DNA from: Candidatus Saccharimonadota bacterium
GTDB lineage: Bacteria > Patescibacteriota > Saccharimonadia > Saccharimonadales > Saccharimonadaceae
Direction: 5' to 3'
Assembly: GCA_015655045.1 (NCBI GenBank)
Contig: JAATFU010000005.1
Coordinates: 248,001 to 312,000 of the forward strand
DNA: 64,000 nt
Shown: positions 996-5,019 of the stretch, in pieces
Numbering within the stretch: position 1 is the first letter of the stretch
Layout of the letters: every line of letters begins with the position of its first letter
Notes under the pieces: model-generated
The model's input: the letters and a program-made list of their open reading frames with translations, nothing else
What the model was told of the DNA's origin: nothing
Databases searched by the model: none
Program-made: the position numbers and the translations under genes

Positions 996-1034
996 TTGGC
1001 CTACAACGATAGAGGAAGTTATAACTCTAGTCAA
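996..1034. repeat. Repeat R2', related to 3188-3226
   Basis: See 3188-3226; both lie just 3' of a minus-strand cassette gene. Confidence 0.8.
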
Positions 1035-1046
1035 GCGAGATCCTAA

Positions 1047-1778
1047 CTATGCCATACCGCCATTAACGTAGATTGTTTGCCCATTAACCCACGTTGATAC
1101 AGTCACCAAGTTCAAGACGACAGCTGCAATATCTTCAGGCGTCCCAAGCCGCTCTTTCGGGTTTGCGCTCGCAATCTTTTGAATCGTTTCATCGTCTTTT
1201 CCGTCCAGAAATAAATCCGTTGCAGTCGGGCCAGGTGCAACCGTGTTTACATTGACATCCTTGCCGCGCAATTCACGGGCCAATATAAGCGTCAGTCCCT
1301 CAACAGCACCCTTCGTTGCGGTATATGCACCATAGTTAGGGAAAGCAGTTTTTACGACACTGGTTGAAAAGTTAATGATTGAACCGCCAGAACGAACGTG
1401 GCGTGCGGCGAGCTGACTCGACACGAACGTTCCACGCACGTTGGTTCGCATCATGGCGTCGAAGTCATCGAGATTGAATGTTGCTATCGAGCCAAGTCGC
1501 ATAATACCAGCGGAGTTAATAACAACATCTACCCCACCATGTTCAGCGATGACCTCGTCAAAGACCTCGCTCATCGCAGTTTCATCTGCAACATCGACCC
1601 TGTACGACGAAATAACACCACCTTCATTGGTAATCTCACTGGCTGTTTTGTCAGCTTCTACTTGGTTAAATGAATAGATAATTGCAACTTTCATCCCAGC
1701 ATCAATAGCGAGTGAGCGCGCTATTGCTTTTCCTATACCTTTAGAACCGCCTGTTACGATTGCGACTTTACTTGTCAT
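1047..1778 (-). CDS. SDR family NAD(P)-dependent oxidoreductase
   Basis: TGGSKGIG nucleotide-binding motif, NSAG, YxxxK (YTATKGA); AAGGAGAA RBS supports start at 1778 rather than 1811. Confidence 0.9.
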   Translation of the reverse strand: MTSKVAIVTGGSKGIGKAIARSLAIDAGMKVAIIYSFNQVEADKTASEITNEGGVISSYRVDVADETAMSEVFDEVIAEHGGVDVVINSAGIMRLGSIATFNLDDFDAMMRTNVRGTFVSSQLAARHVRSGGSIINFSTSVVKTAFPNYGAYTATKGAVEGLTLILARELRGKDVNVNTVAPGPTATDLFLDGKDDETIQKIASANPKERLGTPEDIAAVVLNLVTVSTWVNGQTIYVNGGMA

Positions 1779-2244
1779 TATATTTCTCCTTCTTAATAGA
1801 TAATTTTGCACCTATTTGATTGTTAGACTTACTTATAAATTTCAGCTTTTCCTTGTCACCTAACTGAACCGCTTGCCAATAGTTAATTTTGCCAGCGGCA
1901 TAGTCACGCTGTAGATGTAGTCTTTTTATTTCTTCGTCGATTCGGTCTACCTGTTTCGTGAACAAGCTAACTTGCTCATCGGCAACAGCCTGTCCCTTTG
2001 GCCGATTCTGAAAGTACATTTTAATGTCAGCGATCGGCATTCCAATCGCATTCAGGCGAGCAATAGCTACAAGGTACTCGACATCCGCTTCGCTATATTT
2101 TCTATGCTTGCTCTGCGAGTCTCTTTCGATAAAGGGAATAATTCCGATAGTTTCATAGTATCGAAGTGTTGTTTCAGACAGCCCACTGAGTAATGCGGCT
2201 TGCTTTATACTCACTCCTCGATTTGGCATGGCTTGACTAGTCAT
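1768..2244 (-). CDS. MerR family transcriptional regulator
   Basis: N-terminal 'VSIKQAALLSGLSETTLRYYETIGIIPFIERD...RKYSEADVEYL' MerR winged-helix signature; overlaps the downstream SDR start. Confidence 0.92.
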   Translation of the reverse strand: MTSQAMPNRGVSIKQAALLSGLSETTLRYYETIGIIPFIERDSQSKHRKYSEADVEYLVAIARLNAIGMPIADIKMYFQNRPKGQAVADEQVSLFTKQVDRIDEEIKRLHLQRDYAAGKINYWQAVQLGDKEKLKFISKSNNQIGAKLSIKKEKYNDK

Positions 2245-2249
2245 AGTTC

Positions 2250-2280
2250 TATAGTAATAACTTAGAGTACTCTAAGTCAA
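2250..2280 (-). promoter_or_regulatory. Putative MerR-type promoter with perfect palindrome in a long spacer
   Basis: Minus strand TTGACTTAGAGTACTCTAAGTTATTACTATA; ACTTAGAGTACTCTAAGT (2260-2277) is a perfect 18-bp palindrome between -35 TTGACT and -10 TACTAT/ACTATA (18-19 bp spacer). Confidence 0.75.
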
Positions 2281-2340
2281 CAGAATTATATAATTCCGTA
2301 TTTAGATGGTTATTTTTAGAATTGGTTTCAATCCTACTTT

Positions 2341-2400
2341 GGGGTATAAAAAATCAGAACCGAATTGCCAGTTCTGATTTTGTTGATTATGGCTTGGCTC
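2341..2400. repeat. Direct repeat R1' (terminator hairpin plus tRNA-Asn 3'-end sequence)
   Basis: 57/60 identical to 4891-4950; contains AAAATCAGAAC...GTTCTGATTTT hairpin and ends TTGGCTC. Confidence 0.92.
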
Positions 2401-2418
2401 ACAGTGATGGTCACGGAA

Positions 2419-3114
2419 TTAGTTGTTCGATAGTATGAATTGGGCCGTACCTGCAGCGAGTATTTTCATGGTGTCAAAAACTGGTACTCTACTTTTGATT
2501 GGCAAGAGTAATTGAAGATCGGTACAAGCAAGCGCAATGCTATCTACAGCCTGATTCTCCAGGTGCTCTGCCACCAGCTCCAGGTACGATCGATCACTAT
2601 TAAGATGTTCACCATTTACTAATCTTTGAATGACATTGTTAATCTGTTGTGCTTGCATATCATCTGGAACAAGATACACTAAGTTACTTTGCTTGAATTG
2701 CGTTTCATAGACTCCATTAGCAACAGTAGCAGCTGTCGAAATGAGACCTATTTTTTTATAGTCCTCACGGTTGATGTAGTTAATGGTTTCCTCGACTATG
2801 CTCAGAATTGGTATATTGACTGATTGTCTAAGGTCTTTAATAAACACATGCAGTGAATTACAGGGCAGTACGAGAAAATCCACACCACTTGCCTCAAGTC
2901 GCTTTGCCTCTTCAATAAGAAAAGGAAGATACCTTTCAATTCCCATATTAGAGCTAATGAGATCTCTTTCAATCTCAAACGGTAATGGAACACTGGATAT
3001 AACTATTAATGGACGCTGCTCCTGATTTTGTTTTTGACATTGAAAAATAACCTCCAAGTAGAACTGGGCTGTTGTTTCAGGCCCCAACCCACCGATGATT
3101 CCGACCGACTTCAT
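2419..3114 (-). CDS. Aspartate/glutamate racemase family protein
   Basis: 'MKSVGIIGGLGPETTAQFY', 'DFLVLPCNSLH', 'IALACTDLQLLLP' - family start and two catalytic Cys motifs. Confidence 0.9.
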   Translation of the reverse strand: MKSVGIIGGLGPETTAQFYLEVIFQCQKQNQEQRPLIVISSVPLPFEIERDLISSNMGIERYLPFLIEEAKRLEASGVDFLVLPCNSLHVFIKDLRQSVNIPILSIVEETINYINREDYKKIGLISTAATVANGVYETQFKQSNLVYLVPDDMQAQQINNVIQRLVNGEHLNSDRSYLELVAEHLENQAVDSIALACTDLQLLLPIKSRVPVFDTMKILAAGTAQFILSNN

Positions 3115-3130
3115 CTAGTAATGATAACAA

Positions 3131-3165
3131 AAGTATCCAGTAACGTGAATGCTTACTGGATACTT
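3131..3165 (-). terminator. Strong hairpin, likely terminator of the MFS gene
   Basis: Perfect 13-bp arms AAGTATCCAGTAA/TTACTGGATACTT with 9-nt loop; followed on minus strand by TTTTG. Confidence 0.65.
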
Positions 3166-3187
3166 GCAATTTTGTACTGCAATAATA

Positions 3188-3226
3188 TTGGCTCACCACG
3201 ATAGAAGAAGTTATAACTTTAATTAA
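3188..3226. repeat. Repeat R2, related to 996-1034
   Basis: ttggctcaccacgatagaagaagttataactttaattaa versus ttggcctacaacgatagaggaagttataactctagtcaa (32/39 identical). Confidence 0.8.
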
Positions 3227-3258
3227 ACATGATTCAGTTCAAATATAGCCAATCACTC

Positions 3259-4716
3259 TTAACTAGTTGGCAGTTCTTTTTCACCCTTACGAGCCCTAAA
3301 GTACGCCCACACAATCAGAGCCGTAGCCACTACTGCCAGTATCCAAGAACTAAGTGATGCCGCATTGTGAAACTGTGCCGACTGAGCATCAGTCCAATGA
3401 CCTTGCGAGAAATTACCAACAAAGAATGCAGCAATGAGCGTTCCTGTAATGGCAATACTAATACCCGATGTGATCTCATCAGTTGTATCAACAAGTGCGG
3501 CTCCTATAGAGGTTCGGTTCTTTGGCGTACCTTTCATCACGTTCACACCCGAAACAACTCCGACAACTCGAAGTCCAGCAGAGATTAAAACAAGTGTTAT
3601 AGCTACGAATACATAAGTAACTTGGCCAAGTGTCGCAAATAAGACGATACCTGCAAGAACGCTCAGTGAGCCAAACCATGCTGCGTTATGAATACCAAAG
3701 CGGTTCACGAACTTTTCAACAAAGAATCCCACAAGGATAAGTGTTATAACTTGTGGCAACATAGCGATCGATGCAACAAGCGGCGACCAACCCCAATAAA
3801 GTTGCAGCTGCAAGCTAATCATATATCCAAGTCCCGCAATCGCGAGCCCTGTCGCAGCTTTGTAAGCAAGTCCGCTTGAAACGAGTGGTTGCCCGACGAG
3901 AGCCATGTCGATGAGCGGATGTTTTGCAGTTCGTTCACGAATCACGAATGAGGTTGCAAACACCACCGCAGCAATAGTTGCTACCCAAGGAAGCGGTGAA
4001 CCTGCACCCTCGTTGACGAATAGCGTCGGGGTGATAATCGCAGATACAATCGTGAAAGTTCCGAGAATAGCCCCTATAATATCAATCGGTACTGGATGAA
4101 GTTCATCCTTACCCTCGGGTTTAATACCTGCTCGAATGCCAAAGAATGCCAGTAGCGCAATAGGCACGTTAATAAGCAAAAGTGTTTGCCAAGGTGCAAA
4201 TGACAAGAGAAAGCCGCCAACCATTGGCCCCGTTGCAAGTCCAATGAGCCCCACGGTCGTGATTGAGGATATTGCGCGGATTCGAAGTTTGTCTTCTTCA
4301 AACAAACGAAATGCCAAGGCGATGGTTCCCGGCGTTGTCATTGCTGCCGCAATTCCCATAACCGTTCGCACGGCAATCAACTCACCTGCTGTTTGCACAA
4401 AGATTGTTGAAAGACTCGCAAGCCCAAGAAGCACTAAGCCAATGAGCATCATCCTGCGACGACCAAATCTGTCGGCCATTGCACCAAATGCAAGCATGAG
4501 GCCACCAAATACGATGGCGTAAGCACTCGTTATCCATTGTAATGATGTAACGGAAGCATTAAGTTCACGACCGATCGTTGGAAGTGCTACGTTGAGAATT
4601 GAGTTATCAAGCATTTCGAAAAGGAACACTGCAGATAAACCAGCCAATGCTGGCCAAACTTCACGCAAGGTATGAGGTTTCATTGTTTGATTATTTTTTA
4701 GGTTATGAGCGGGCAT
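3259..4716 (-). CDS. MFS transporter, DHA2-like multidrug efflux family
   Basis: About 14 hydrophobic segments; 'LDNSILNVALPTIGRELNASVTSLQWITSAYAIVFGGLMLAFGAMADRFGRRRMMLIG' motif A and 'GPMVGGFLL' motif C. Confidence 0.9.
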   Translation of the reverse strand: MPAHNLKNNQTMKPHTLREVWPALAGLSAVFLFEMLDNSILNVALPTIGRELNASVTSLQWITSAYAIVFGGLMLAFGAMADRFGRRRMMLIGLVLLGLASLSTIFVQTAGELIAVRTVMGIAAAMTTPGTIALAFRLFEEDKLRIRAISSITTVGLIGLATGPMVGGFLLSFAPWQTLLLINVPIALLAFFGIRAGIKPEGKDELHPVPIDIIGAILGTFTIVSAIITPTLFVNEGAGSPLPWVATIAAVVFATSFVIRERTAKHPLIDMALVGQPLVSSGLAYKAATGLAIAGLGYMISLQLQLYWGWSPLVASIAMLPQVITLILVGFFVEKFVNRFGIHNAAWFGSLSVLAGIVLFATLGQVTYVFVAITLVLISAGLRVVGVVSGVNVMKGTPKNRTSIGAALVDTTDEITSGISIAITGTLIAAFFVGNFSQGHWTDAQSAQFHNAASLSSWILAVVATALIVWAYFRARKGEKELPTS

Positions 4717-4742
4717 ACTTCCTCCATAGTTAATTTGGAGAA

Positions 4743-4845
4743 GTAACGGTTTGCTTGTTACCGCTGTATTCGTACTACCTAGCTAATCGGTAGTACGTTT
4801 TTACTTCAATAGGCCTAATATACCATCACTTATATAAACAGTCAA
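4743..4845 (-). promoter_or_regulatory. Promoter and structured leader of the MFS gene
   Basis: Minus strand TTGACT (4845-4840)-17 bp-TATATT (4822-4817), then hairpin CGTACTACC/GGTAGTACG (4771-4797) and GTAAC/GTTAC (4743-4761) before the start codon. Confidence 0.65.
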
Positions 4846-4890
4846 CAAAATAACTTACGCTTATATGGGTATCGGTTTCAAATCTATTCT

Positions 4891-4950
4891 GGGGTATAAA
4901 AAATCAGAACCGAATTAACGGTTCTGATTTTGTTGATTATGGCTTGGCTC
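4891..4950. repeat. Direct repeat R1 (terminator hairpin overlapping tRNA-Asn 3' end)
   Basis: 57/60 identical to 2341-2400, offset exactly 2550 bp. Confidence 0.92.
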
Positions 4951-5019
4951 CGACGGCTGGACTCGAACCAGCAACCTCGAAGTTAACAGCTTCTTGCTCC
5001 ACCATTGAGCTACGTCGGA
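4945..5019 (-). tRNA. tRNA-Asn(GTT)
   Basis: RC folds as cloverleaf: acceptor TCCGACG/CGTCGGA, T-arm GCTGG-TTCGAGT-CCAGC, anticodon loop CTGTTAA (GTT), encoded CCA. Confidence 0.92.

Follow-up and report, generated by a model that had tools for sequence, protein, structure and literature searches.

A tRNA-Asn gene followed by three cassettes

In a 64,000-nucleotide stretch of contig JAATFU010000005.1 (hereafter the window), part of the 848-kb genome of a Candidatus Saccharimonadota bacterium (G000; assembly GCA_015655045.1), three small gene cassettes follow a tRNA-Asn gene, and we analysed them as possible products of serial insertion at the tRNA end. The original prediction, made from the letters alone, had placed the tRNA on the minus strand and read three modules behind it as captured cassettes: an MFS pump, a racemase, and a MerR regulator with a short-chain dehydrogenase/reductase (SDR). 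The tRNA call, tRNA-Asn(GTT), falls exactly there, and the modules are real, with all of their open reading frames (ORFs) on the minus strand (Table 1). The heptamer said to delimit them was verified at 4944, 3188 and 2394 (TTGGCTC) and at 996 (TTGGCCT), and our recomputed identities for the two longer repeats, R1 (57/60, 95%) and R2 (32/39 by direct count), agree with those first given.

Table 1. Features of the tRNA-Asn locus in window positions, followed by two sites with other cores in relatives
Feature	Position	Strand	Remarks
tRNA-Asn(GTT)	4945-5019	-	chromosomal target, attB half B; crossover core formed by its 3′ end, GGAGCCA
Core GAGCCAA, tRNA-proximal junction (B-O-P′, attL-like)	4944-4950	-	breakpoints of shared cassettes map to this core
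Cassette 1, about 1.76 kb	3188-4950	-	core, terminator, MFS efflux gene, R2
Terminator hairpin opening cassette 1 (part of R1; P′ side)	4900-4931	-	13-bp stem, then T-run
Cassette 1 cargo: DHA2-type MFS multidrug efflux pump	3259-4716	-	closest NCBIfam model Tet(43), score below cut-off
R2, P half-site closing cassette 1	3188-3236	-	antisense reads WLTTIEEVITLIKHDSVQI-stop (C-terminal tail of a large serine recombinase, LSR)
Cassette 2, about 0.8 kb	2394-3194	-	core, terminator, racemase, divergent P half-site
Terminator hairpin opening cassette 2, second P′ family	3132-3164	-	from fold
Cassette 2 cargo: Asp/Glu racemase family protein	2419-3114	-	63%-identical relative in G091 (L235)
Divergent P half-site closing cassette 2	2394-2430	-	antisense reads WLTVMVTELVVR-stop
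Cassette 3, about 1.4 kb	996-2400	-	core, terminator, MerR, SDR, R2
Terminator hairpin opening cassette 3 (second R1 copy)	2350-2381	-	from fold and R1 match
Cassette 3 cargo: MerR-family regulator	1768-2244	-	carried together with the SDR
Cassette 3 cargo: SDR	1047-1778	-	carried together with the MerR regulator
R2, P half-site closing cassette 3	996-1044	-	core decayed to AGGCCAA; chromosome junction (P-O-B′, attR-like)
Tail-like site, other core (G076)	L233:10290-10328		WRATVLSISTVIK; WRATVLSISTVIKSYF...; directly before racemase relative
Tail-like site, other core (G300)	L234:904-942		WGAAVDAITTEII; WGAAVDAITTEIIYNL; directly before racemase relative

R1, which opens cassettes 1 and 3, is composed of the tRNA-end core and a terminator hairpin, and its similarity continues beyond the 60 bp as a 95-nt repeat with 84% identity. 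The R2 copies that close the same two cassettes are 78% identical over 46 nt. Cassette 2 opens with a hairpin of another type, which recurs in relatives, and the racemase module also closes with a divergent site of the R2 kind. The heptamer taken by itself does not exceed chance: the window has 13 copies, the expectation is 8.6, and 15 shuffles in 100 give at least 13. We rejected it as a marker on its own; the significant signal lies in R1 and R2. R1 was likewise rejected as a unique mobile-end repeat, being tRNA core plus terminator. A similar hairpin lies directly 3′ of the tRNA-Trp gene of the same genome (C7:147988-148024; L003, L237).

The relatives do not carry the three genes in a fixed order, nor are the repeats generic ones spread over the genome, R1 being complete only twice in G000. 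In the genus, 26 tRNA-Asn loci differ in what lies downstream, as expected of alternative insertion sites, and at none of the others is the first cassette gene of G000 adjacent to the tRNA. Other modules bounded by R2 are present throughout the order.

Distribution and exchange of cassettes

Using an R2 pattern with up to 3 mismatches, we found R2 in 46 of 391 Saccharimonadales genomes and the reversed pattern in 0 of the 391; a query with the R2 end against 100 relatives gave strong matches in other families. Among about 308 genomes of the phylum outside Saccharimonadales R2 was found in none, and in a set of 334 phylum genomes the only matches came from G000 and G064, both members of the order. 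A wide scan with the exact pattern, covering one genome per species of bacteria and archaea, returned 27 stretches, all titled Saccharibacteria or Saccharimonas except for contigs of three 'bacterium' records of metagenome-assembled genomes (MAGs) and one small contig labelled Clostridiaceae (DUPE01000005.1; L076). The latter has three R2 sites and is probably mis-binned, since one of its stretches matches a Saccharibacteria contig at 95% identity. Within an array the R2 sites are tandem and share a single orientation, and the upstream tRNA, where one was found, is tRNA-Asn(GTT) in that same orientation in 22 of 23 arrays, the exception being an array behind tRNA-Gln(CTG) in G067 (L020/L205). 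From this pattern we interpret R2 as an order-wide recombination half-site.

Read in the direction of the tRNA, a cassette comprises GAGCCA(A), a terminator hairpin, the gene or genes (mostly one), R2 and again GAGCCA(A), and measures 450-2600 bp from R2 to R2, with one outlier of 9.4 kb. Of the genes nearest to R2, 44 of 55 share the strand of the tRNA, and an ORF ends between -48 and +60 bp from R2 at 87% of the sites, compared with 23% at random positions. Terminator-like starts were seen in 46 of 56 cassettes and in 64 of 480 controls. The P′ sequence beside the core shows no conservation between cassettes. In G091 (L235), which belongs to a different family, a racemase 63% identical to that of the window sits in a tRNA-Asn array behind a divergent site reading WLAVVDMMPVK-stop. 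The cargo recorded in alignment A1 has a stress and defence flavour, with Thoeris ThsB-like TIR proteins, Mads-like proteins, LD-carboxypeptidases, an E1-E2 P-type ATPase, an HNH endonuclease, an aldo-keto reductase and DUF1697.

When genomes were compared with one another, near-identical segments running from core to core emerged in unrelated neighbourhoods. G072 and G145, from families f14 and f6, share 670 bp at 98.5% identity, with an 83% copy in G388 (f1); G294 and G204, of different genera, share 481 bp at 96.7%; and L074 shares 686 bp at 94.5% with the complete genome CP011211 (G243). G143 (f33) is 96% identical to G243 (f1) over 1066 bp and 99.9% identical to G145 over 1209 bp. The high identity breaks off at the cores of 6-7 bp, which supports the view that whole cassettes have moved core to core between genera and families. 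Mis-binning could account for single cases, less easily for those that involve complete or single-contig genomes.

R2 and the large serine recombinases

Read antisense, R2 encodes WLTTIEEVITxIKQDL-stop. In a codon-phase test on 71 non-redundant sites, the WLTTIEEV frame had 233 synonymous and 286 nonsynonymous changes, whereas the two remaining forward frames had 93/426 and 97/384. The variable positions are the third ones of the codons, with an entropy of 1.02 against 0.56 and 0.45 (permutation p=0.006). One reverse frame is also high in synonymous change (205/276), and we therefore regard the test as supportive and not decisive. The decisive item is an intact LSR of 550 aa in G178 (L106), with Resolvase and Recombinase domains, which ends in ...IWLTTIEDVITTIKQDLASS, the very tail that R2 encodes. 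By its sequence, R2 is the 3′ end of an LSR gene. A structural, attC-like hairpin had been considered for R2 and was dropped in view of the codon-phased variation and of this LSR.

A second group of enzymes carries a different end. In G280, a 545-aa LSR (L103) terminates in SLSWLRRLGSNQRPCR, in which everything after W-L is antisense tRNA-Asn; the fused Trp codon TGG is the complement of the tRNA 3′ CCA, and R2 is found at the opposite end of the element, 9.6 kb from the LSR-tRNA junction. The element itself (L103:1855-9602) holds several large genes, including ones of 671, 597 and 387 aa. All four LSRs that are at least 70% alike (G280, G141, G183 and G190) have the in-frame fusion to antisense tRNA-Asn, e.g. 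...SWLRRLGSNQRP, and the nearest R2 lies 9.6-16.6 kb from the fused tRNA on the same contig (p=1.7e-4). Divergent LSRs also occur at tRNA-Asn, one fused to it in G018 (34% to P0001) and one abutting it in G402 (28% to P0002), and G014 retains a remnant. All three LSR domains were detected in P0001 (PF00239, Resolvase, 1.1e-21; PF07508, Recombinase, 3.1e-6; PF13408, zinc ribbon, 9.3e-10) and in L146, whereas P0002 has PF00239 and PF07508 with no zinc ribbon detected. Among the 30 best homologues of the L103 enzyme (L168-L197), most end in or run into a tRNA 3′ end (Asn, Arg, Leu, Ala, Tyr, Gly, Gln or Pro), many with Trp, the antisense of CCA, at the junction. PF07508 matches likewise run into tRNA-Lys, Gln, Phe and Gly.

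The original prediction had pointed to tyrosine recombinases; a recombinase is indeed associated with the sites, but its class is large serine. That a tyrosine recombinase integrates the cassettes, with R2 as its site, could be argued from the usual preference of tyrosine integrases for tRNA 3′ ends and from the likeness of the arrays to integrons. We find it scarcely credible, given that R2 matches an LSR C-terminus, that LSRs are fused at the core, and that PF00589 (tyrosine recombinase) never lies beside an array in 24 array-related genomes, which have at most two matches each, mostly on other contigs. The window array encodes no tyrosine integrase.

Another explanation accepts the LSR origin of R2 and denies mobility to the small cassettes: each R2 would mark a separate past insertion of a full LSR element, from which deletion later removed the LSR and most of the body. 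This would account for the presence of R2 everywhere in the arrays. Whole LSR elements of 9.6-16.6 kb do stand at tRNA-Asn, and LSR remnants such as L028 exist. However, near-identical small cassettes with exact core-to-core ends recur in differing genera, families and neighbourhoods, and gene stops abut R2 in compact units, a regularity that random deletion would not repeat, so that we consider decayed islands an improbable source of the arrays.

Several further observations weigh against an LSR-driven system. We did not find an LSR of the cognate clade in G000, whose two LSRs lie elsewhere, one of 569 aa running into tRNA-Gly(GCC) (C8:16503-16943; L141) and one of 531 aa at 51.7 kb of C5 with no tRNA nearby. 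Since the distal core is also decayed, the window array is an orphan or old one, perhaps a fossil. PF07508 matches occur in 34 of 46 R2-bearing genomes and in 184 of 345 others (p=0.011), a modest association, and 12 of the 46 have none. The LSRs linked to R2 and tRNA-Asn are only 25-34% identical to one another, hence a single enzyme for all R2 sites is not established. No excised circle came to light, and a search for R2 in collections of viral, plasmid and phage sequences gave no match. The sequences do not define the boundary of the half-site on the P′ side, and the evidence consists of assemblies, mostly MAGs, in which recombination is read from sequence.

The missing cognate enzyme would also suit a scenario in which homologous recombination between scattered R1 and R2 repeats moves the genes and no site-specific system is at work today, and both repeats are long enough for some homologous exchange. 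Yet the breakpoints are confined to the 6-7 bp core, the adjoining P′ is not conserved between cassettes, and the sites are co-oriented and anchored at a tRNA; we hold such exchange to be highly improbable.

Proposed mechanism and comparison with known systems

Serial capture at tRNA-Asn, as first proposed, is supported by the alternative sites, the core-to-core transfer and the association with a recombinase. Together with the site anatomy, its recurrence across the order, the LSR origin of R2 and the LSR-tRNA fusions by the arrays, these observations lead us to think it very probable that an LSR with attP in its own 3′ end serially inserts cassettes at the CCA end of tRNA-Asn. The attP would consist of P (R2), the core GAGCCA and P′ (the terminator and, in LSR elements, also the LSR body). 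The core equals the 3′ end of tRNA-Asn, and the antisense TGG of CCA is an in-frame Trp codon, with which the reading frame of the LSR stays open in either state. If the LSR recombines attP with the end of the tRNA, this would place an incoming circle beside the tRNA, giving tRNA-core-P′ and P-core-B′ as products. Integration would fuse the LSR in frame to the antisense tRNA, and its original last 18 or so codons (R2) would stay at the far end as P.

Small circles that are not autonomous, equipped with no more than P, the core and a terminator hairpin on the 5′ side, would be inserted there in trans in succession, and new genes would presumably become cassettes. Later insertions on the tRNA side would displace older cassettes outward, leaving internal P-core-P′ junctions and head-to-tail cassettes that each close with R2. 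A terminator at the cassette start makes sense here, because each insertion would displace the tRNA's own terminator and the incoming hairpin would substitute for it. The proposed outward displacement is displayed by G183, whose order matches it: tRNA, a 16.5-kb LSR element, R2, a 1.1-kb cassette, R2, a 2-kb cassette and R2. L106 would fit an LSR which, once displaced, took up an R2 tail again from the cassette ahead of it.

In layout, the arrays recall integrons: we found compact, mostly single-gene, co-oriented tandem cassettes in which a shared recombination site follows each gene, with insertion apparently fixed at one end and diverse adaptive cargo. They differ in having a probable LSR instead of IntI and a tRNA gene as anchor, and no IntI-type recombinase lies next to an array in the 24 genomes. 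Their site comes from coding sequence, the 3′ end of the gene for a recombinase, whereas attC is a folded single-strand hairpin; attC-type sites are folded inverted repeats with little sequence conservation, while the primary sequence of R2 is conserved and codon-phased.

In the staphylococcal cassette chromosome (SCC), attB lies in rlmH, the units usually measure tens of kb and the enzymes are Ccr serine recombinases. In the Saccharibacteria arrays, LSRs are fused at the core and the cores stand in tandem; if an LSR acts on them, they would be like SCC and its enterococcal counterpart in the large-serine-recombinase type, serial insertion, direct core repeats and non-autonomous members. They target tRNA-Asn, have cassettes of mostly 0.45-2.6 kb and keep half of attP inside the recombinase gene; we found neither an attB in rlmH nor a ccr gene complex. 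For the enterococcal Ccr cassette chromosome we refer to PMC6222049. With genomic islands at tRNA genes, where tyrosine integrases are at work (Islander database, PMC4383910), they share a tRNA 3′ end as attB, its direct repetition at the far junction and a restored, intact tRNA. Unlike such islands, they would involve a serine recombinase and form arrays of single-gene cassettes in place of one large island, and no self-encoded tyrosine integrase was seen in the window array.

The archaeal SSV-type integrases are tyrosine recombinases with attP within the integrase gene. That attP lies within the recombinase gene, which integration splits, is common to both, but here only the last 18 or so codons would be swapped for antisense tRNA and the enzyme frame would stay open. 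The system thus resembles the integron in layout and SCC in enzyme class, and departs from each of these known systems in at least one defining feature. We found no prior description of it in the open-access literature; preprints and most subscription papers lay outside that scope, and its novelty is provisional.

LSRs run into other tRNAs as well (Arg, Leu, Ala, Tyr, Gln, Gly, Pro, Lys and Phe), and some tail-like sites have cores of another kind. We therefore lean towards a family of tRNA-specific LSR cassette systems in Saccharibacteria, of which tRNA-Asn/R2 would be one; in each, the LSR would have a swappable C-terminal tail that spans its own attP and is joined in frame through Trp at CCA. 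The tail-like sites in G076 and G300 (Table 1) are possibly parallel cassette systems at other tRNAs. If so, this entire order of reduced-genome episymbionts would possess, in the serine-recombinase class, an equivalent of the integron through which its members exchange genes. The genomes of Saccharibacteria are tiny, and few ways are known in which they acquire genes; a device for exchanging single genes between genera and families is apparent throughout the order, its goods including efflux pumps, oxidoreductases, peptidases and defence genes such as Thoeris ThsB. It indicates that a serine recombinase can take the place of IntI at the centre of an integron-like array, in the uncommon arrangement that the recombinase's own 3′ end is the recombination half-site of the cassettes. 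With R2 as a tag, mobile cargo can be sought in the genomes of uncultured organisms and, if the enzyme is active, a compact serine integrase aimed at a tRNA end could serve as a tool.

G022 has a lone R2 copy (L026:9978-10026) whose core is destroyed (GAGGGTGAAAG); it lies near a tRNA-Pro of opposite orientation and far from the tRNA-Asn array, and is probably a stray or decayed site. Behind tRNA-Asn in G006 (L144) and G008 (L157), a short piece of the tRNA 3′ end recurs in inverted form after the terminator hairpin (CATGGCTCCG... and TTGGCTCCG...), in contrast to the direct repeats of the arrays.

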